Below, in pieces: positions 1,376 to 15,482 of a stretch of 64,000 nt of DNA. The DNA lies in NCBI RefSeq assembly GCF_949628265.1, contig NC_088787.1:37002844-37066843 (forward strand), written 5' to 3'. The translations under genes were made by a program, and so were the position numbers. Source of the DNA: Cloeon dipterum. Lineage: Eukaryota; Arthropoda; Insecta; Ephemeroptera; Baetidae. The notes under the pieces were generated by a model. It saw nothing but the letters and a program-made list of their open reading frames with translations, did no database searches and had not been told where the DNA came from. Numbering within the stretch: position 1 is the stretch's first letter; each line of letters opens with the position of its first letter.

Positions 1376-1650
1376 TTACGGCACTAATTGGCTGCCGAAA
1401 AATGCAACAATTTTCTTGCGCGGATATGACATCACAGAATATGCTGTTAGGCTAGGCGCACTATCTGCACACCGCGCGAACGTCGCGGACGTGTGCCGTA
1501 GCATCCGATTGGATGATCGCGCCGTGTTCATGTTGTTGTTGCCTCTGGCACAAGCTCCGCACGCTAACCACATATTTCGTGTTGTGATTATAATTAAACG
1601 CATGTCGGTCTCTGGAAATTTGGATTTTGGTATCGATTCATAATTTTTGT

Positions 1651-1945
1651 GATGAAGGTTCGGAAGAAGAGTCCGAAGATGATTACGAACTCTAAGCTGA
1701 TTGTGAAGCCATCGAAGAACCCCAGCAAAAATCAGACCGCAGGGTAGTCTCTTACACTGAAAAGGTCGCTGCAGTGGATTTTTGGCTCTACAATGATAAC
1801 CCAGATGGTGGGCCAAATCGCAGAAAACCGAAAAGGGCATTCACGTCAGTGAAAAACATCAGCCTTATGTCTACTCTATAGACCAGTTGCGCCAGTGGCA
1901 ACGCCAAATTGAAGACAGGGAGTCATTGAGGAGAAGGTAAGGAGG
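1651..1945 (+). pseudogene. pogo/Tigger-like DDE transposase, N-terminal remnant
   Basis: Acidic codons at 1651 lead into a frame containing KPKRAFTSVKN. A shift of one frame then gives YSIDQLRQWQRQIEDRE, which resembles the N-terminal DNA-binding part of pogo/Tigger transposases. A stop (TAA) near 1695 and the frameshift near 1860 break the frame. The sense continues at 5516 (KLVEVEAAVLARFHDATK), so this is the same gene interrupted by the LINE at about 1960-5515. An end such as AGAAG/GTAAGG near 1940 could also be a splice donor, so an intron at this place is possible. Assignment rests on the stronger DDE part downstream. Confidence 0.55.
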
Positions 1946-2258
1946 TAAGCTAGCATCGAGTGTGCAGGCAAAGAATCTGTCTCTGCTGTATTCCTGCCTC
2001 CGGGCGTTGTTTCAGGTTCACCGGGCCGGCGAGCCCCCTGGCGAAGCTTTTTTATCGCCCCCGCCGACCTTGTCGCGCGGAGGTGACCCTGAATACTGCC
2101 CAGTTGATTGGAAAATAGCTAAACGAAGTTTTCCCATTGACTGCCCAATCGCTGGAGAAATTCCGAGAGAGACGTTTGAATAGAAGAGACGAGGATTCCA
2201 TTTAAAACCCTCGGGACCCTGATCTCTGGAATTCGATCGACCATCTGGACCACTGTAT

Positions 2259-2576
2259 ATGCCACAGATGCCACCCTCGAAATGTTTTAATTGTGACAAG
2301 GCCGGCCGCAAGAATGCTGTTTTTATCAAATACTCTGACTGCCCGCTAGAATTTCACAGAACATGCCTTCGCAAATTCACAAAATATAGCGAGAAAGAGG
2401 TTAATGAATACAAGAAGAAAAATAATTTCAGCTGCTGGTCATGCTCCGTGCCAATGCTAAACGATTCCTTCTGGAGCGTTCCCGAACCGCTGCATCCAAC
2501 CCGAGCACGTAGTTCACAGCACCAGCAAAATTATAAAAAAGCAGCAGCGATTTTGTGCTTCAACGCCCGTTCTTAA
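2259..2576 (+). pseudogene. LINE copy 1: PHD-finger segment and start of the endonuclease
   Basis: The frame shows CFNCDKAGRKNAV, then a Cys/His group (DCPLEFHRTCLRKF) and CWSCSVP, the Cys4-His-Cys3 spacing of a PHD finger. It runs into ILCFNARS, the first strand of the EEP endonuclease. In the related copies this is followed without a break by the rest of the endonuclease, so PHD, EN and RT form one frame in this family. Here a TAA at 2574 and a frameshift near 2620 break it. The upstream 5' UTR (about 1960-2258) shows no convincing coding. Confidence 0.7.
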
Positions 2577-2617
2577 AAAAAAAGGAAAAGGGCCGCTGAC
2601 ATTACTGCTCTCTTAGA

Positions 2618-5321
2618 GTGCTACCTGCTGACATTCTCGCTAATAATGAGACCTGGTTGTCGTCTGATATTTCCGACCACGAGGTGATCCCCATTGACTA
2701 CGTTGTGCTGCGGAAGGACAGAACTGGCGGCCGCAGACCAGCAGGCGGCGTCCTGCTGGCCATTCTTCCGCACCTTCTGCCGCGCCGACAGACACAGCTC
2801 GAGACCACTGCTGAGGCCGTTTGGGCCGAAGTGACGGTCTCGAATTTGCGTTTCCTCATCGCCTCAGTGTATAGAGCACCAAACTGTACGCCAGAGCTAA
2901 ACGATGAGTTGCTTCGCTCGCTTGCGCTGGCCGCCGAGCAGCAGCACAACTACGACGCGTGCTTTGTCATGGGCGATTTCAATTTGGACGTGGACTGGAA
3001 CAACGAGACGCCGCTGCCGAGAGCTGCACCTGCTGAACAATTCGTCGATGCCTTTGATAATTTCGCCTTTGCGCAGCTGATAAAAAACGCAACGAGAACC
3101 ACGGCCACGAGCGAGAAGACCATCGACTTGTTCCTATGCGACACGCCGAATCTCGTCTCCACGAGCGAGGTTATCGCCGGCGTTAGCGAACACGACGCGT
3201 TGCTGATCGGCCTCAAGGTGGACTCCCGCCGCCCGCCACCTGTGTCTATGACGCTTCCGGACTGGCGGCGTGCCCACTGGCCGGCTCTCAACGACCAACT
3301 CGCGGTGAAGCTGCAAGAAGTGACGCAAGATGACCTCGCGGAAGCCTGGTCAGCCTGGAAGACAGCGCTGTTTGAATGCGTCGCGGAGTGCGTGCCAACC
3401 AGAAGGACGCGATCAAAGAGGAAGCTGCTCCCCTGGCTCGACAAAAATCTTAAAAAGCTAATTAAAATTAAAGATGATCTGTTCACGCAGTGGATGAGAG
3501 AGAAAACCAATGAGACGAGAAGCATTTTTGAGACGGCGAGAAAGGCAACCCAAGGCGCTGTCAGACTGGCTAAAGACCGCTGGTTTTGGAATCTCGGCCG
3601 TGGACCACAAGGGGCAGCTGTGTTCTGGAAATTCATTCATTCTAAATCAAAAGTGCCGATTAACACGACTACTTTTTCAGCTGACGGCCGTATTTTCAGT
3701 GAGCCTGCAGCCGTCGCTAGCCAATTTCTCGCCACTTTCAAGCAGAACTTCTCGCCAGCAGGCACTGATTTTCCGTTCGTGCGCCACGCGCCCGTCCAAA
3801 ATGAGAAGCTGAGCAAGCTGCATATCACGGCGAGCGAGGTCAGCGCCTTGCTGCACGTCCTGGACGCCAAAAGTGCCGCAGGACCGGACGGCATCCCTGC
3901 AGTGCTGCTCAAAAACTGCGCTGAGACGATCTGCCCCAGCCTCGCCCACATTTTCAACCTTTCGCTGCGGACACGCGACTTGCCGGCCGACTGGAAGTGT
4001 GCAGCGGTGACGCCGATCCCAAAAGAAGGTAACAAAAATGATTTCAATAATTACCGCCCCATCACCGTCACCTCGCTCGTTGGAAAACTCTTGGAGAAGC
4101 ACGTCCGCAACCAGCTTGCAGCATTCTTTGAGAGGATAAATTCCCTGCCAGACTGCCAGCACGGCTTCCGCGAGCGGCGCTCGTGCACGACAATGTTGCT
4201 GAAAACCCTGGACAACTGGACTGCGGACCTCGACAGCAACAGCGGGCAACACGTGCACGCAGTTTTCCTCGACTGGGCGAAAGCTTTTGACAGGGTTCCA
4301 CATCAGCGGCTACTGGCCAAGCTTCATCACCATGGCGTTGACGGCGAGGTCCTCGGGTGGCTGAAAAACTTCCTCGTTGGTCGCAGCCAGTTCGTGCGTT
4401 TCGGCGGCGCACGAAGCGAACCATGCGAGGTTACGAGCGGCGTCATCCAGGGCAGCGTGCTGGGGCCGCTGCTTTTCAACATCTATGTGTCCGACCTGCC
4501 TGCAGCCCAGAAAACTAACCTCGTGCGATACGCCGACGACTGCACCGTGTTCAGGATTGTGAGATGCCAAGATGACGTCGACGAACTGCAGGAAGACCTC
4601 GCCCTCGTTGACATCTGGTGCACCAACAACGGCATGCAGCTGAACGCCAAGAAATGCGTTGCGTTTGACATGACGCGCGCGCGCCAGCCGTGGACGCCCC
4701 AGTACACGATCGGTGGCGTGGCGCTCGACTACGTCTGCACGCAGCGCCTCCTTGGCGTCCATATCTCAAGAGATCTGCGCTGGAACCACCATGTCGAAGT
4801 CCAGCGTTAGAAAGCGGCGCGTACTCTTGGATTCGCGGCCCGCAATTTGCGTGGCTGCACGCAGAGAGTGAAAAGGATGGCGTACCTGACCCTCGTGAAG
4901 CCCAAGTTGTTTTACGGGACTCCGGCGTGGCACCCCTGGACCAAGGCAAACATCGGGAAGATGGCTAGAACCCAAAACAAAGCCCTCCACTTCATCTATG
5001 GTCGCCACGTCCCGCCGCCGCAACACCAGAAAATGCTGTCCGTCCCAGCCCAGCTGATGTTCAATGACCTGCTTTTCTTCAAGAAGAGTCTTTGCGGCCT
5101 CACAGATTACGACGCAATGGCGCGCATCACCGAGGGCCGAGTGCATCGCGGCGACGACTCGCAGCATCCGCGGCTGCAACAGCCACCAGCGCGCACCGAA
5201 CTCGGCCAGTGTGTTTGATTTTCGAGTCATCGCCTTTTGGAATGCTACACCACCTGCATTGAAAGACTGTTCGGCGGCACAGTTTCCTTCCAAGTGTAAG
5301 GCGTTTGTGAGTGCTTTCTAG
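2618..5321 (+). pseudogene. LINE copy 1: endonuclease and reverse transcriptase frame
   Basis: Endonuclease motifs in order are NETWLS (metal-binding Glu), SVYRAPN, MGDFNLDVDW and SEHDALLIGL (catalytic His). RT motifs follow: PDGIPAVLLK, YRPITVTSLVGKLLEK, CQHGFRERRSC, FLDWAKAFD (first catalytic Asp), GVIQGSVLGPLLFN and YADD at about 4530. A TAG at 4808 interrupts the frame. Sense continues from 4847 with a C-terminal block (HFIYGRH, FFKKSLCGLTD), and a frameshift near 5210 precedes the last residues (FWNATPPALKDC). The encoded enzyme would nick target DNA and copy the element RNA in the nucleus. This copy cannot make it in one piece. Confidence 0.85.
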
Positions 5322-5515: not shown

Positions 5516-6467
5516 CTGGTTGAAGTTGAGGCTGCCGTCCTGGCAAGGTTCCATGACGCAACGAAGAGGAGTCAAATTTTTAAAGGAATTACGGTTCGAT
5601 GCTGGGCAGTAGAAGAAGCAGAAGCCGTGGGCCTGCCTTTTGAATAGTTTTGCGCCTCTCTGCCTTGGCTAGATCACTTCAAGAAAAAGCATAGGATCAG
5701 CGACAGGAAGATCACAAAGCCCACTAGCAAGCGAATTTTGACAGAACAAGCAGAAATCGTAAAGATAGTTGAAGAATTTGTAGCAGAAGTGAGAGAATTG
5801 ATGAAGACAGCTGACACTCAATTCGTGTTCAATGTGGACCATACTGGCATCAACAAAGAAATCCACAATTCAAGGACGCTCGAATTCATCGACGAGCGGA
5901 TTGTCGCTAAAGAAGTCCAGAGTGTCATCGCAACAACCCACTCTGTCACCCTTGTTCCTGTCTGCAACGCTGCAGGTCAGCTCCTGGAGCCTGCATATCT
6001 GATTTTCCCAGAAAAGAATGGAAGTTTCGGTCCAAACCTTGCTGTTGTGCGTCCTGAAAACCTGAAAATTACGTGCAATTTGTGGGAAGATGTTGGGCAG
6101 CCTGGTTAGGTAGCTTTTTGAGACCTGCGTATTTCCCCACGTCCCGGAGGGTGAAAAATCTGTGGTTCTCATTGATCACTGGCTTGGGTGGAAAACAAAG
6201 AGACCACTGATTCAAAGCTGGGCAGAGGAACACGGAATTAATATCGAAATCAAGCTGATTCCCGAGAGCACATCAGGAATGGTTCAACCCCTTGATGTGA
6301 TTTTAATGGCCCGCTGAAAAATCATCTGCGGACACTTGAAGACAAGTCTGCATGGACAAGATTGATTTTAGCATCCAGACACGCAACAATCTCATCAAAA
6401 TCATCAGCTTCACCTATAGTCAATTAAAATCCCATCGTTTTTCCAGCATGCTTGAATACGGCTGGAA
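5516..6467 (+). pseudogene. pogo/Tigger-like transposase, catalytic DDE part
   Basis: Sense resumes right after the LINE tail. The catalytic Asp residues are visible: NVDHTGINKE (first D, about 5838), VVLIDHWLGWKTKRPLIQ (second D, about 6160-6210) and SGMVQPLDV (third D, about 6285). This is the DDE order and spacing of the pogo branch of IS630-Tc1-mariner. Breaks seen: TAG at 5645, a frameshift near 6100, and further shifts near 6300 and 6350. The last sense is SSMLEYGW at 6450-6465, where a 6951-bp insertion begins. Sense continues at 13421. The enzyme would cut and paste its own transposon; this copy is dead. Confidence 0.8.
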
Positions 6468-6515
6468 CCCCAGGTGCCAATCCCGGTGGATCCACCGGGG
6501 GAATCCCCGGGGATG
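6468..6515 (+). repeat. left terminal inverted repeat and subterminal palindrome
   Basis: The 15-bp terminus is followed by a perfect 12-bp palindrome, GGTGGATCCACC, and by GGGGGAATCCCC. A related block (GGATCCACCTCGCGGGA) recurs at about 6668. Such subterminal repeats are typical transposase-binding sites, but no function can be proven from sequence. Confidence 0.7.
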
Positions 6516-6935
6516 TGTCCACCGTTTTAGAAGTTAGCTATTCTTATATAAAAGTCACGCGAAGTTTATAAATATTGCTTAGAGCTTTACTTTTCGTAAC
6601 ATTGTTACCGAAAATGATGATAAAAGCAAGCATAAAGAGCGAAAATAGAAGAGAGATTATTCTAGGAGGATCCACCTCGCGGGAGACTCGGCCACCACAT
6701 TCCACCACAAAAAAATCGAGATATTTACATTAAATATGCCTCCAGTCAACTATTTGTGTCATAATCAATCGATAAATCTAACCTTCTCACTGCCGAATTC
6801 GTTCGGCGGCCGAATAAACTTCATCATTATCAGCCAGCTAAACTTTCGCGCCAAGCTTCTGCCGGGCATATGCGTGTTGCTTGGCAACACCGCCCATCAC
6901 CTGTTCGCGACCGGCACTAGGCACTACAATCAACA

Positions 6936-7395
6936 ATGGCGAGATCGCCGGCCAGTTTGCATTTTTGTCACAGGTTATGTTGTTTTTCTACTAATTTCGC
7001 TTGGAAAAACGCCTCGGCCTCCATCCGCAACCGTTTATTAAGAGCCGAGCTACGTTCGCACTGCGCACAGCTCTGCAACATCGTCGCCAAGTGCACTTTT
7101 ATCCATTCAGTAGGTACGAATGATTAGATAATTATTTTCATATTATAATTAAAATTATGGGTTACTCAAGCTTTTCAATCACTCGGCACACTTCTCGCCC
7201 TGTCCTAGCGAGAAGTGTGAGTTGTGCGAAAAGTGTGAGTCTTCCAAATGTCTGCTAGAAATCCTAAACAATTAATAAAATCTTTCATTTTTGTCACAGA
7301 ACGCCTCGTTGGAAAAGTGGAAGCGCGTACGTTTTACCCAAGACCTGGAAGATGGGTTGAAAGAGAAATTTCCACTCGTTGCTGACCTATTTTGA
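6936..7395 (+). CDS. possible two-exon small protein (89 aa) inside the TIR element
   Basis: ATG at 6936 follows a favourable context (caacaATGg). Exon 1 (6936-7109, 58 codons) is open and ends at a possible donor GTAGGT. An acceptor (ttgtcacag) at 7291-7299 opens exon 2 (7300-7395) in phase 0, which reads NASLEKWKRVRFTQDLEDGL and stops at 7393. The N-terminus is Cys-, Arg- and Ser-rich, with no clear signal peptide or known domain. It is not recognised as any family. The support is only the phase fit and the position near the element's left end; it could be chance. Confidence 0.3.
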
Positions 7396-8563
7396 TCACA
7401 GAGGCTTTTTCGTGCAGAGGTGAAACTATCCCTGAAAGACCTTTTAAGGTAACCCAGCCTGGCAGGGCCAGTCCTCTAAAGTCCAAATTGTTATATATTT
7501 ATTATTTTTTATTTTTGGAAGCGCCTGGAGATAAATTTCATCTTTTGTGATTGCCATAGGAGTGCGGCGCCTGCTGTTGACGTTGCTGTGGCGCACAAGA
7601 GCTGTTCTTGCTGGAACTACATACGAGAAGTCAAATTCAACCAGATGAGCTGCACGAGCTCTCTTTCTATGTCTTCCTCTGGATTGACGCCGTCTACTCG
7701 TTTGAGCAGGACAGACGCATCACAGCGCTGGCATGTGAGTCCATCCAGCTGCCTCCTATCCTCTTGATACTGATTCTGTAGCTCGAGGCACATTGTCGGT
7801 GTCTTCACAGGGAGCCACCGAATGCCAGTGAATGCCGCCAAATGACCAACGATAGTTGTTTCTCTTATTTCATAACAACGAATATTAATATGTATTTATT
7901 CCTTACATCTTAATTAATAATAATTATATATTTCTTCAGTGTTGACGCGATAAGGCGGAAAAAGAGCCAGATAATGAGAGCAGCTGAAGCCGATTATATG
8001 ACAAGTCTATGGACACTGATTTGCTTAGGCAAATTCCTGCTGTCGGTAATCTCGGTTTTCGAGCTTTTAGCACAAAATAGCTTTTTTTAAAAAAAATTGA
8101 TTACTCCCCTCCTTTATTTTTCACTCCCATGCTCTACGGCTCTTCCTCCTCCTCTTCGTCGAATCTGTTCCTCATAATCCATAGTATTTTTTACTCAAGA
8201 TCTTTTTTTGGCAAGATTTTTCGTCAGGAATAAAACTAAAACAAATTTTCGAAATTATTGGAAGCAAAAAATTTCAATTGTATTAAGGAATAATTTGTTA
8301 AACATTTTTTTCACTTATAATTGTATGGTATATTTTTTTATTTGCATTCTTTTTCTCTCAAATATCTGTTAAAATAAACTGTTTTTAAATAAGACATGCA
8401 AGGAAAATATGCGCCACTATGCATTAATTTGTGGGTTTTGTTAAAAATATATTTTTTAAGTAAATAAAGTTTCCAGGTTTTAATTTTTCCATTAAGATTA
8501 AGTGTAATACATATATATGTCAGGTAATAAAAAATTTGTATCAAATTTGGATAGCATTTAAAT
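7396..8563. other. element interior without an assigned gene
   Basis: Mostly AT-rich. An open minus-strand frame of 74 codons at 7617-7841 contains a Cys pair (LTCQRCDASVLLKR) but has neither a good ATG nor convincing splice sites, so I do not call it a gene. Confidence 0.4.
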
Positions 8564-8586
8564 TTTATTGCGCTCAAACATTTATT
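8564..8586 (-). promoter_or_regulatory. polyadenylation signals of the DUF4806-like gene
   Basis: Two AATAAA hexamers on the minus strand (8586-8581 and 8569-8564) lie 21-43 nt past the stop codon, the expected place for cleavage and polyadenylation signals. Confidence 0.6.
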
Positions 8587-8606
8587 CGAATAAAGAAAAA
8601 AAGGCT

Positions 8607-11600
8607 TCAATATTGGTAGTCCACCTGACGGGACGTGCTAGGTCTGTTGTTCGGGCCGCGAGGTGAATATCTGAGTAGAAATAAATTGTTTAATTAAAAA
8701 AGCTCTTCCAATAGCAATTTTAAATAATGGCTTATACCTCTGCTGGTCATTATAGAGTCTGCGTGGCGTATAGGACGTTCTGTTGCCACCATTGTATCTG
8801 AAAAATATACCGTTTTTGATAAGAACATATATTGTGCTGTTCGTATCAAAGACGCACCCTGAACTGTACGGTGAAAATCTGTAAGAGCTATAATTTCGGC
8901 CCCCACCGCCATACCAATTTGGGCTGAAACAAAAATTTCATAATTTCTAATTTATCAAAGCTAAACATATTAATTGGAACCTTTTATTGTTGATCCAATC
9001 TGACTGGTTCCTACGATGCGTTGGAGTTTTGTCGTTTTCGTTCGGACCAGAATGGGGCCTTGGGGAAACCCCAGTCAGCCTTGAGGATGGAACCCTGTCG
9101 GACGAAACACCTCTCCTGGGAAAAATGTGAAAAAGATTAATGAATATATAGAAACAAAGTGATATTTTAATAAAGCAGATAAATTTAAAAAATATATATA
9201 TTTACATATAAACAGCAAAACTTACTCTTGGGAATCCTTCTCGGTCCTCTGTTCGCTTCCGGCTCGGCTGCGAGACCTACTCGAGCGCTTTTTTGCATCC
9301 TTTAGCCAACTTTGTACTCCTTGCGTAAAATTTATAAGATTGGCAGGGGGAGTAGTTTTCAGTTTAGGTAGTTCATCGACCACCGCTCCTACGGCAGAAT
9401 AGGAAAAAAATTAGTTAAGCTAAAGAAAGTCTTTCTTAGAAAGGGCAAACAATTACTTTGTAACATGGCAGCAGTTTTGGTGGATCGAAATGCCAATTTG
9501 GTTGTCTTCCCTTGGTTGGACACGCCGTGCCAAGTGAACTTCTCAGCCATTTCATTTGACATAACTTTCCTCAGACATATATTAAGAAAGCTCGTCAAAT
9601 TGGGCCCATGGAATAGACGCAGTCTTTTGACCTAATAGGAAAATACATTGCACACAAATATATTTTTTTTTATAAAAGATCAGAGGGTAACATTGATAAT
9701 TTTGAAAATTTTTGCTTTTCAAATAATTGAGATTTTAGAATTACCAAAGATGTCACAACAGCTGGTTGATTCAAAGCATCCTCAAAGGCTTTGAACTCGT
9801 CGTCTGATTTACATGGCAGGGTTTGGTAAATGTCGTCGATGTTTGTGACAGTAGGGAGAGATGTGACGTTATTTGAGGTCAGAATAAATTTAATTTCGTC
9901 CAATCTCTCGTTCATCATCTTTGTCAGAGCATCAAACCTCCTGTCGATATACTCTGCAAAGATAAAAATTAATTAAGATTAAATCCAGCCAAGAAACAAA
10001 CTAGTGCCAAATCATGCCAACAGCATAAAAGCACTGCATTTTTTAAACCTTTAAGATCCTTAGAATACTCATCTGATTTATGAGACACTTCGGGAAATTT
10101 ATTCTGCTGGTGGGACTCATCATGGCTCAGATCTGAGGAAATTATAAATCCAATTAAAGAAGCAGCCCATACAAATAAATTTTGATTTATCTTACCCTCG
10201 GTATCTAAACAATTATAATCAAAAACAGAGCCTTCAACAAGATCATCGTCATCGTCCGAGGGAGGAATTGTTTCGATGTTGTCGGCCATGATTTTTCCAA
10301 TCTCCGGAGACGTCCGCTCAATATGTGACGGTGATCCGCCAGAGTTATGCTGCTCTGCGTTTTTTGCTTCAACCTCTATATTTAAAGCTAGTTTAGATCC
10401 TGCAAAAAATATAAACAATTTAGGTGGTATTATTCCTTAGATAATCGCGTGGTGATTAAGATATAATATTGTCAGTATTGCTTAAAACATGTGTTTTTAA
10501 AAATCAATGACGTTTTTTTCTGGAGAGGGGGGAATATGGCAACAAAAATACTGAAGATATTTTTATACCGAATAAAAATTAAATTTAAAAAAGACAAAAA
10601 TTACCCAAGTCAGTCAGATCAATTAACTTTGGTTGAGGAACAAAATCTTGCTCGTCTATTTCTGAGGAGCAATTACCACCATCAGAACTTTCAGAATTAA
10701 CAGTGGCTAAGCTGTTTCTCAAGGTGCTGCTAGCGTTCCTTTTCTGTGATCTCCTTTTTCCTGCAAGTTGGATAAAAATTAGGACTTGGGTGAGTGCTAT
10801 AAAAATCGTTTTATATATACCTGCTGTCACATTATTCTCCTCAGGACTGTTCAAATACCGACTTGGTTTCTTTCCTCTTGTGCTTCGAACGGCAGTTCCC
10901 TTGCCTGCGTCTGCGTCGCTGTCGTCTAAAAGTTTTTCTGCCGTTCTGAAGTCCTCTGAGTAAAAAAATCAAAGACTATGCTTAAAACTTATTATTTAGA
11001 ACTCAGCATCATTGTGAATTTATTTTCCAACTTAATTTTTAAAAAACTAAAAACTAATTTAACTATTAAACATGTTTTCAAATTTTGAAAAATTCTAGAA
11101 TATTATTGATTTAATCAACAATATATTGTATTTACCGGTTTGCCCAACAACCCTTTTGATAGGGAAGGTTGCCCACACTTCCCGTACTGGCTCAACATGC
11201 CGTTGCAGCATTTTTACAAATTGTAACGAGTTGCGATATGGGGGCCAGAACGTATGTCCACCACAAATCCATCTCGAAGAAAGAATCTCGAAGCTTCCTT
11301 GGTGTCCTCTCCGCTTTCCAAACTCGACCACGACATATTTGTATCTGAAAAGAGTTTCTTCAATAATCGCAAAAACATGCAAAAATATTATTGTGAAAAG
11401 AAGAAATATCAAGGGTTTTATTAAAAAATTGCACGGTTTTGAAAGAGGTCAACATTTGGCCTCATTAAAATTCACCAACGTCAACAACTGCTTACATTCA
11501 GAAAGCTGATTAAATTTACAGATTTTTTTTCTTAGCAAGATTTACTCAAATTCACGATTTTGTCTCAAAATGCTATGAAATTTTCGACAGGCCGTTACAG

Positions 11601-12250
11601 AAACTTTGAAACTTTTTGGGAAAAAATACTCAAAAGAATGAGAATCATCTCAGAAATAATATTTTGTCATCTTAATAACTCCTATGATTTTCAGAGCTCG
11701 GACCTCTATGACCTTTTGACTCAAATAAATTTTTTATTGATTTACGAAGACAGATACGTGCCGAAGTTCTCAATATTTTCTGATTAAGAAAACGTAATGA
11801 ATATGATAATCATGCGAACTTATATATATGCCGCCTTCTGAAACAAATTGAGATGCAACAGCGGGAAATGCCCTCTTTGTTGACTAATCAGATGGCTTTG
11901 CTAGTTTCCTCCGAAATTGACATCGCTCGACAATGTTTTTTCACATGATTTGAATTCCTCTCATCGAGACAGTTTGTGTCTTTCTTTTGCAAATGTGCAA
12001 TTTAGGTGGAAATCGCGGTAGAAAAATAACTTAGCGGATTTCTCCATTGAAATCCGTGCTAACTCTGTGGCCGATTTTCTCTAAAAATTTAAAGCACTGC
12101 CTCTGTGCATTATTTAACTACGCACATGATCTTTTCCTTTGATCTATACCTTTCTTTTCGTGTTTCTTCCTCATTGTCAGTCAGGTCCTGCTCATCCGCA
12201 TTTTTATCATCATTTTCCATGTCTGACATCGTCCTAGAAATTATGCAGTC
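8607..12250 (-). CDS. 13-exon gene, DUF4806-like protein with RS-rich tail (579 aa)
   Basis: Exons read directly from GT-AG sites, all in phase: 12250-12150 (ATG at 12229), 11344-11136, 10955-10821, 10760-10605, 10399-10196, 10132-10049, 9953-9745, 9631-9457, 9388-9226, 9115-8981, 8923-8858, 8797-8738, 8670-8607 (stop 8609-8607). Coding length is 1740 nt with no internal stop. Exon 2 has the YKYVVVEFGKRRG...FWPPYR pattern found at the start of DUF4806-type proteins. Exons 7-8 carry the C-terminal DUF4806-like block (LPCKSDDEFKAFEDAL, then LTSFLNICLRKVMSNEMAEK and FTWHG). Exon 9 has an SR stretch (KKRSSRSRSRAGSE); exons 11-13 are Gly/Tyr/Arg-rich. The middle is acidic and Ser-rich. The molecular function of this family is not known to me; the basic tail suggests RNA or DNA contact (inference). 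The gene fills most of a TIR-flanked insertion, so it may be transposon cargo or the element's own gene. Confidence 0.88.
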
Positions 12251-13030
12251 CTGCAAAATAATGAAAAACGAACTGGTTTTAGATTATCATTCAAAAAGGA
12301 TTAATGTAATCATATAGAAGCTGAGAGTAACAACAGAAAATAAAAGCTGAATTTAATGTTATTGCATGCTCATATACCTTTTTATTCAAAACGTCTTAAG
12401 AAAAGTGCAAAAAATTTCAATCTCAGGGCTTTCGTCACTTCAACCACCATAGGGTGGAAAATTATAACTAAAACGCCGAACGCCCAGCCAGCAAATTTTT
12501 GGTCAGAAATATTCTGGCATTATTTGAATAATATGCCGAGAATATTTCCGTTGTGAATTTATCGAATTGAATTTATATAAAAATATGTCCTTTTTTAAGC
12601 ATACGGTTGGCTGGACATTTTGGTGAAACACCAGGGTTTTGGGTTTTTCGGAAGTCTGCTAATCATTACAACATGTGTGGTGTTATGATACATTTACGAA
12701 TTAATTGACAATATTTATGTACATAATTTACTTACAAATCACTCGCGCTTCTTCTCGGCGACGATACGAGCAATATCCATTTATTGTATACACACTCATT
12801 TGAGGAAATCAAACGAATGGAGCACTGGATGACACTTCAGCTGTCAGCAAGTCGAAATGCACTAATTATGTTGTAAAATTACTTAAATTTTGGCCTCGCC
12901 GTGCATGCCGTTTGTTTTCATGCGAGTCTGCGACCGCAGCGACCAGCATGCGTAAGGCATGGAGCGGAGCGGCGTTGCCAACAAACCGCCTGAACGCGTT
13001 GCGCGGCAAATTGAAAACACCGCTCTGAAC
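12251..13030 (-). promoter_or_regulatory. probable noncoding first exon and promoter region
   Basis: On the minus strand a strong donor, GATTT/GTAAGT, lies at 12736/12735, and the acceptor at 12252 (TTATTTTGCAG) opens the exon holding the ATG. This implies a noncoding first exon ending at 12736. The region upstream (12880-13030) is GC- and CpG-rich, unlike its surroundings, as a housekeeping-type promoter would be. The transcription start cannot be placed. Confidence 0.45.
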
Positions 13031-13334
13031 GGCTTAATTAACTTCTACTAATTAACTAATTAGCTAGTTTTAGGACTTGAATGCGTGAAAGGATCAATAA
13101 ATATTAAGTTATCTCACTTTTTGCTTCATATTATGTTATTTCTGAGTGATTTTTAGGAGGTGGAACGAGTTCGAAGTGGATCATTCTCCGGAGATCCACC
13201 TCGCTCGTTCTAAGTCGATTTATTGGCCAAATTTGGGTGACAACGTGGGGGGTATGTTCTAAAATCGTCATTTTAGGAACAGTTAGACCCTCATGCGTGA
13301 GTTTCATCGCATCAATGGGCAGATTTCACTAGTT

Positions 13335-13418
13335 TAATGAGTTCGCCAATTCTCGGGGGAATCCCCTCGCCCGTTCTAGGAGGATCCCCCGGGAATCCCC
13401 GGAGATTGGCACCTGGGG
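13335..13418 (-). repeat. right terminal inverted repeat and subterminal repeats
   Basis: Read on the minus strand it begins CCCCAGGTGCCAATC, then runs through CGGGGGATCCTCC and GGGGATTCCCCC, matching the design of the left end. A related block (GATCCACCTCGCTCGTTC) lies at about 13193-13210. Confidence 0.7.
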
Positions 13419-13420
13419 AA

Positions 13421-13613
13421 GAAGCCTGGCTACATTGAAAAACGAGGAGAATGGTATGAGCTTCCAAACAGCTACGGCTTCCCAATCCGTCCGGGACCGT
13501 GCGTCAAGTGCGGTAAAATGAGGTTCCTCCGGTGTAGCTGGTGTACGAGACTCCTTTGTTTCAAGCATTCTTTTGAACAATTGCACCTATGTGATGTTTA
13601 CGTCGAGGAATAG
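13421..13613 (+). pseudogene. pogo-like transposase, C-terminal zinc-binding tail
   Basis: Directly past the TIR element, the frame continues KKPGYIEKRGEWYELPNSYG and then has a Cys/His cluster: PCVKCGKMRFLRCSWCTRLL, CFKHSFEQLHLC, with TAG at 13611. The spacing (C-x2-C-x6-C-x2-C then C-x2-H-x5-H-x2-C) looks like a compact zinc module, as seen at the C-terminus of piggyBac-type transposases. Here it belongs by continuity to the DDE frame at 5516-6467. Such a tail on a pogo-like enzyme is unusual. This segment itself is undamaged. Confidence 0.6.
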
Positions 13614-14957: not shown

Positions 14958-15482
14958 GCTTGTTTATTTTCATCAAAGAAATGTACATACATGTTAAAAA
15001 ACAATTTTTCAAACACTAAAAATATAAATCACAGTGAGAAAAGGCACCATTCCTGGTAGACATCTCGCTAAAACTACCCAGGAGGGCAGAGCTGGAATGG
15101 CCCTTGAAAAGAGGGGAATTAAGCTGCCCTAGAAACACGCACTCACATACGCCTTACTCTTGGAAGGAAACTGTGCCGCCGAACAGTCTTTCAATGCAGG
15201 TGGTGTAGCATTCCAAAAGGCGATGACTCGAAAATCAAACACACTGGCCGAGTTCGGTGCGCGCTGGTGGCTGTTGCAGCCGCGGATGCTGCGAGTCGTC
15301 GCCGCGATGCACTCGGCCCTCGGTGATGCGCGCCATTGCGTCGTAATCTGTGAGGCCGCAAAGACTCTTCTTGAAGAAAAGCAGGTCATTGAACATCAGC
15401 TGGGCTGGGACGGACAGCATTTTCTGGTGTTGCGGCTGCAGGACGTGGCGACCATAGATGAAGTGGAGGGCTTTGTTTTGGC
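14958..15482 (-). mobile_element. 5'-truncated CR1-type LINE copy (copy 1 family)
   Basis: On the minus strand this repeats the last ~525 bp of LINE copy 1 (from about 4971), including the C-terminal sense (HFIYGRHVLQPQHQKML, CGLTDYDAMARI), the same frameshift before FWNATPPALKDC, and the 3' UTR to the tail. The 5' end stops abruptly at 15482, as expected for incomplete target-primed reverse transcription. Because it shares the frameshift seen in copy 1, both may descend from one already defective source, or the family may use that frame end differently. Confidence 0.85.

Follow-up and report, generated by a model that had tools for sequence, protein, structure and literature searches.

Pack-type elements such as Pack-MULE, Pack-CACTA and the Tpn1 family of Ipomoea are transposase-less elements with terminal inverted repeats (TIRs), which carry unspliced host gene fragments. 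According to the excerpts of published work on which we draw here and below, the maize transposon En/Spm contains an 11-exon tnpA gene with the tnpD open reading frame (ORF) in the region of intron 1 (PMC2613891). TNPA binds to subterminal repeats and TNPD was proposed to cut at the TIRs; both proteins are required and able to act in trans, and the second proteins of En/Spm, Tam1 and Tgmt* are unrelated between these families (PMC2613891). Moreover, the CMC superfamily is characterised by target duplications of 2-4 bp, and ISL2EU elements (PHIS) by an AT duplication, ends starting with GG and THAP/YqaJ proteins (PMC4482050). Here, we describe EL, an element of 6951 bp located at positions 6468-13418 of a 64,000-nucleotide stretch of Cloeon dipterum DNA (contig NC_088787.1; hereafter the window). 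EL is likely to belong to an En/Spm-like group as a member that lacks a transposase, has kept a TnpA-like DUF4806 gene and depends on a transposase acting in trans. The DUF4806 gene looks like a built-in transposon helper more than a captured passenger because its relatives, which are found at the loci designated D2 and D3, adjoin a transposase-like gene, and one of them lies inside an element with related ends. We know of no CMC family with a DUF4806 gene, as far as an incomplete literature search extends.

The original prediction described EL as a segment with perfect 15-bp TIRs and AA flanks, which was confirmed by comparing the ends and reading the flanks. The element, its ends and the gene that it interrupts are arranged in the window as follows:

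6468-13418: EL, 6951 bp, Cloeon dipterum
6466-6467, no strand: left copy of the target-site duplication, AA, from flank comparison
6468-6482, plus strand: left TIR, CCCCAGGTGCCAATC
6468-7109, plus strand: left terminal/subterminal region, 75-80% identical to the copies L039-L047
12939-13418, plus strand: right terminal/subterminal region, 81-90% identical to other copies (73% in the fragment L021)
13404-13418, minus strand: right TIR
13419-13420, no strand: right copy of the target-site duplication, AA
5648-6467, plus strand: 5' part of the interrupted gene, already decayed, transposase-like by eye, without Pfam confirmation
13421-13613, plus strand: 3' part of the interrupted gene, with the frame running to VYVEE and a stop

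The inverted 15-bp ends are identical and the 33-bp arms are 82% complementary. In the 190-Mb assembly, the 15-mer has 17 exact occurrences, as compared to zero for a reversed-pattern control. Excision of EL together with one AA yields a single open frame spanning the junction, whereas the frame is broken if both AA are kept. It had been claimed that this excision restores the sense of a transposase. The open frame is indeed restored, but the transposase label did not receive support from Pfam (a single 141-aa piece matched Metalloenzyme with an E of 0.055) and stops are present upstream of the insertion. Likewise, the suggested comparison of empty and filled sites gave a contiguous frame after excision, but no paralogous empty copy was present among the fetched loci, and a whole-genome search for one was not made. 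The restored frame also bears on the idea that EL is not one unit and that two separate end-bearing insertions surround a host gene. Fragments with only one recognised end do exist (L048-L052), but the identical 15-bp ends, the AA/AA flanks and the frame restored over the whole 6951 bp make this explanation extremely improbable; two independent insertions were rejected as the source of EL on the grounds of the restored frame and the AA/AA duplication.

The main content of EL had been predicted to be one complete spliced gene without any known transposase, and this was verified by a splice that is identical to the NCBI protein and by Pfam scans. The gene comprises the following features:

8607-12229, minus strand: intact 13-exon gene LOC135937763, 579 aa, manual splice identical to the NCBI protein
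12229-12150, 11344-11136, 10955-10821, 10760-10605, 10399-10196, 10132-10049 and 9953-9745, minus strand: exons 1-7
9631-9457, 9388-9226, 9115-8981, 8923-8858, 8797-8738 and 8670-8607, minus strand: exons 8-13
9476-9822, minus strand: DUF4806 domain, residues 334-411, split by the intron 9744-9632, whose position is common to D2 and D3
11345-12149, minus strand: intron 1, equal in position and phase to the D2 intron with the transposase-like ORF, which is missing here
11417-12134, no strand: dispersed genomic repeat in intron 1, with matches that are 66-77% identical

All 13 exons are bounded by GT and AG, and the protein scores 32.5 bits against Pfam PF16064 (DUF4806), which is above the cut-off of 25. 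Six-frame Pfam scans of the window from 6600 to 13418 uncovered no transposase domain and only a trace of DUF4806, the transposase-like ORF of D2 has no match in the window, and Rfam gave no match. A homologue that is 75% identical to the EL protein and shares long invariant blocks with it, P0002, is encoded on a 27-kb Cloeon contig, apparently from another assembly, which shows that an EL-type gene is kept on another Cloeon contig. A search with residues 290-440 of P0002 returned the same two proteins only.

A protein search revealed four further DUF4806 places in the genome, at C3:28.54, C2:36.89, C4:28.79 and C2:36.94 Mb, which are 33-43% identical to EL; the last one is weak (E 0.02, two stops). 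In all three loci examined, a transposase-like ORF is located upstream of the DUF4806 gene on the same strand, and two of the three, the two copies of D2, are bounded by related ends and 2-bp duplications. One D2 copy spans C2:36888408-36896475 (8068 bp, flanks CA/CA) and the other C3:28536660-28544328 (7669 bp, flanks AA/AA). Both copies are 99% identical where compared, introns included, save for a 253-bp repeat that is present in one of them, and on one side the identity stops at ...GATAATGGCACATGGGG, after which the flanks differ. D2 was found first as a duplication edge; the family-type TIR was seen afterwards, and the inverted upstream end was located in both copies by a pattern search. 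Since D2 ends in family-type TIRs in both copies, it represents a second, long-diverged DUF4806 gene within an element with related ends. The termini agree with the EL ends at 13-15 of 18 positions and with the ends of the EL-family group B at 15-16 of 18, so that the proposed search for DUF4806 genes flanked by the ends of EL recovered related ends, but not identical ones.

On C2, D2 contains an intact ORF of 599 aa on the strand of the DUF4806 gene, and the C3 copy of this ORF was read in part, without its middle. Judged by sequence and splice signals, the ORF lies wholly within the intron that separates the DUF4806 exons inferred to be the second and the third; the two small upstream exons, which are predicted from consensus splice signals, would be in frame with the exon starting FEYVVVEFG. 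The ORF shows a weak co-linear match to Pfam Transposase_21 (E 0.005, 16.5 bits, cut-off 28.6). D3 on C4 has an intact ORF that is 59% identical to that of D2 and directly precedes the DUF4806 gene; the comparison of D3 covers the locus without its ends and upstream exons, and the fourth DUF4806 place was left out. The motifs DGxNP, LxPLV, DLPA and CxFC of the transposase-like ORF are those which we take to be TNP2-like, as a lead and not as a test. Intron positions are common to EL, D2 and D3, and in both genes synonymous sites are saturated (pS 0.81 or more), with far less change at replacement sites (pN 0.26-0.49). The 253-bp repeat mentioned above (L061 1707-1959; C2:36892706-36892958) is a clean recent insertion in the C2 copy of D2, which is missing from the C3 copy, and many copies of it with 74-100% identity exist. 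A single weak Transposase_21 place was also noted at C4:32405068-32405316 (E 0.02), in an open frame of 693 aa.

The search for further copies by the ends, which the original prediction had proposed, uncovered nine copies with about 640 bp or more of the left end of EL (L039-L047), eight of which have both ends; most of the nine also share 430-490 bp at the right end. Homologues of the left end are present at no fewer than 14 places including EL (40 of 142 candidates scored), and those of the right end at 13 places or pieces including EL (12 of 12 scored). Both ends are present in EL, L039-L045 and L047; L046 has no recognisable right terminus and L048 no left one. Matching 2-bp flanks occur in seven of the nine both-ended copies of the family (AA, TA, TG, GA, TA, TG and TC). 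The mismatched flanks belong to L039 and L040, an identical tandem pair whose outer flanks AA match. Together with the two D2 copies, nine of 11 elements show 2-bp duplications, and the chance of nine or more of 11 is about 7e-10. The terminal 400 bp of EL and of the group B and C copies contain GGATCCAC 3-4 times (0.05 or fewer expected) and AATTTCGA recurs four times in D2 (0.11 expected), as judged by a simple Markov control that is uncorrected for the number of words. The copies L039-L041 of group B are 99-100% identical, L042 and L043, which lie on different contigs with unlike flanks, 99.9%, L044 and L045 98.8%, and L044 and L047 93%; part of the movement of the family was thus recent. 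The tandem pair at C1:40333975-40348027 has a spacing of 2.66 kb and looks like a composite unit or a local duplication. Group B also carries a near-palindromic repeat of 1.8 kb (L039 element coordinates 1409-3224; 73% identical to its own reverse complement), for which dozens of genome matches exist, and four tandem, MITE-like elements of 58-90 bp with CCCCAGGTGCCAATC-type inverted ends were observed in L053 (501-1196; C1:39064630-39065325).

The recent movement also matters for the idea that the gene of EL began as an accessory gene of a transposon, was domesticated and now serves the host, for instance in repression, and that EL itself is immobile. The lack of a second close copy in this genome, the intact gene and the long invariant blocks of P0002 at 75% identity would fit such a role, and BEN-type domains are said, in the excerpts consulted, to recruit chromatin modifiers. 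However, the TIRs, the target duplication and the subterminal regions of EL are intact and sibling copies have moved recently, which makes domestication rather improbable.

How could EL have acquired its present form? The members of the group would be cut-and-paste transposons with two genes, CCCCA(G/T)GTGCCA at the ends and target duplications of 2 bp, and a second gene with many exons would hold the transposase ORF in one of its introns. The ancestor of EL may have carried the transposase in its first intron and lost it later. The DUF4806 protein would serve as a TnpA-like DNA-binding cofactor for the subterminal motifs of its own family, and a D2/D3-type element with similar TIRs might supply the transposase of EL in trans. 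Given the plan of D2 and the separate terminal motifs of each family, EL has the look of an element from which the transposase was lost, whereas the factor that suits its own ends was retained. What links EL to D2 is the TIR, the homologous gene and the length of the duplication, and the En/Spm-like placement of the EL group is provisional. The suggestion that the DUF4806-like protein is itself part of a new transposon type is supported in one respect: a transposase-like ORF is present in three of three loci and related ends in two of three, which favours the protein as part of a transposon. But "new type" is too strong because the elements are laid out like En/Spm and differ from it in the second protein and the end sequence. 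We regard it as a serious, albeit tentative, possibility that the animal DUF4806 (BEN-like) proteins are by origin the TnpA-equivalents of an animal En/Spm-like transposon clade, and that the accessory gene of EL travels alone, so that specificity protein and transposase of this split system reside on different elements.

Several observations weigh against the main explanation, in which EL is a non-autonomous member of this group. In the exons compared, the EL and D2 proteins are only 33-45% identical, and beyond the TIR the two elements share only short, chance-level DNA matches. The DUF4806 pieces of D2 and D3 score below the Pfam cut-off (E 0.032 and 0.001), the D3 ORF has no Pfam match, and the D2 ORF matched none of the fetched loci outside D2 and D3. 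A genome search with PF02992 (Transposase_21) gave one match, at neither D2 nor D3, and a six-frame search with PF16064, whose domain is split by an intron, gave none; 14 control genomes were silent in both searches. The AlphaFold model has a mean pLDDT of 35 and was unusable for a fold search. Among the 20 copies and fragments L039-L058, the search with the EL protein gave one match with an E of 8.2, which is chance. No transposase emerged when the cores of L039 and L044, portions of L050 and L051, and EL itself were scanned with Pfam in six frames, and a transposase with EL-type subterminal regions was not found among the end candidates scored. The expectation that some copies would carry a transposase was thus disappointed for the fetched EL-family copies that were scanned. 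Moreover, searches of the PDB with the transposase-like ORF and a two-protein DUF4806 profile as well as of NCBIfam returned nothing useful, and no relative was detected on viral contigs.

The capture of host genes by the EL family is real. A locus on C2 (L060) harbours in a row the host genes for an ABA_GPCR protein (121 bits), which we take to be GPHR, kaptin (PDB kaptin, E 2e-40), Muted and Vma12, and the cores of groups B and C match this locus. Thirteen sources were compared with the cluster, namely EL, L039, L041-L050 and the joined L051+L059; L040 was omitted because it is identical to L039. Eleven of them match, with the order kept save for one reversed match of 25 bp in L048, and L049 and L050 have no match. 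EL contains the following pieces:

7391-7459, plus strand: short match to sequence upstream of the GPHR gene of the host, 75%, E 2.6e-5
7501-7545, 7564-7621 and 7647-7741, plus strand: three co-linear fragments of the GPHR-kaptin region
7780-8071, plus strand: decayed fragment of the Vma12-like gene region of the host, 67%, with stops, E 4e-6

The fragment 7647-7741 corresponds to a kaptin exon (88%, tblastn E 1e-10); EL coordinates 1180-1268 had been considered as a transposase remnant, which was rejected since they are kaptin. In the copies shown, the kaptin, GPHR and Vma12 pieces have gaps, frameshifts or stops. Because part of the matching sequence reaches beyond the open frames of these genes, the segment was captured as DNA and not as spliced RNA. 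The family may have taken up an unspliced host segment of about 5.5 kb (the GPHR, kaptin, Muted and Vma12 region), which would have decayed since. Two further cargo candidates were discarded: RPS23, seen by eye in an ORF, is about 7 kb away from the right end of L048, and the stretch fetched there contains no left end; WDR55 adjoins an old left end in L051, for which no right end was found in L051+L059. The latter, at C2:6961014-6972133, is an old copy with a left end, kaptin-cluster pieces about 10 kb in and WDR55 exons between them; parts of it, 92-93% similar, recur at C2:6.997 Mb, where L049 also has a left end.

Could EL have captured its DUF4806 gene in the same manner? A Pack-type element may have taken up a DUF4806 gene of the host, all introns included, in which case the protein would have no role in transposition. 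The family demonstrably took unspliced host DNA in 11 of 13 sources, the other fetched copies are devoid of DUF4806, and P0002 on its 27-kb contig could be a host gene. However, no close donor was found in this genome, only the places with 33-43% identity, of which the three examined adjoin transposase-like ORFs and two reside within TIR elements. Furthermore, the host fragments are decayed, whereas the DUF4806 gene is intact. We therefore consider capture, which the original prediction had offered as one of two readings, unlikely and do not favour it, and the DUF4806 gene of EL was probably not captured from the host, even if it could have been recaptured secondarily.

Outside EL, inverted arms of 343 bp that are 99% alike were observed at positions 4972-5314 and 15139-15481 of the window, the left one directly after a long ORF that is reverse-transcriptase-like by eye.

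In Hydra, DUF4806 is among the expanded domains beside transposase domains, with 69 and 54 in the table (PMC7642931), and the genome of a bark beetle shows an enrichment of DUF4806 along with DUF5641 (PMC13270666). The literature passages searched did not name DUF4806 as a transposon component, an absence that was weakly tested by an incomplete search. If the TnpA-equivalent origin is true, lineage-specific DUF4806 expansions such as that of Hydra would be transposon copies. The main explanation of EL would assign a concrete role to the protein family. It would also show the two-gene layout of En/Spm in an animal whose second protein is unrelated, and the intact copies would allow one to ask what this protein does. 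Moreover, the EL family provides an insect example of a DNA transposon that captured a host segment with several genes.

Compared to known systems, EL resembles the Pack-type elements in having TIRs, no transposase and host gene fragments with an intact donor elsewhere, but it differs in keeping an intact gene that its relatives tie to the transposon itself. The 2-bp target duplication of the EL family recalls ISL2EU; membership was rejected since the dinucleotide varies (AA, TA, TG, GA, TC, CA) and is not AT only. EL-family elements and D2 duplicate 2 bp of varied sequence, a length within the 2-4 bp of the CMC superfamily. As far as the excerpts describe En/Spm, Tam1 and Tgmt*, these transposons share with D2 a transposase ORF nested in an intron of the second gene, and with the group repeated subterminal motifs and a short target duplication. 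Unlike ends starting with CACTA or CACTG, those of EL and D2 begin with CCCCA(G/T)GTGCC; because CACTA/CACTG ends are absent, the group is not classed as CACTA but only as similar to En/Spm in its way of working. It also departs from En/Spm in its animal host, the 2-bp duplications, the DUF4806 second gene and the weak match of the ORF to Transposase_21. D2 fits the plan of tnpD within a tnpA intron, DUF4806 taking the position of TNPA, and D3 agrees as far as it was read.

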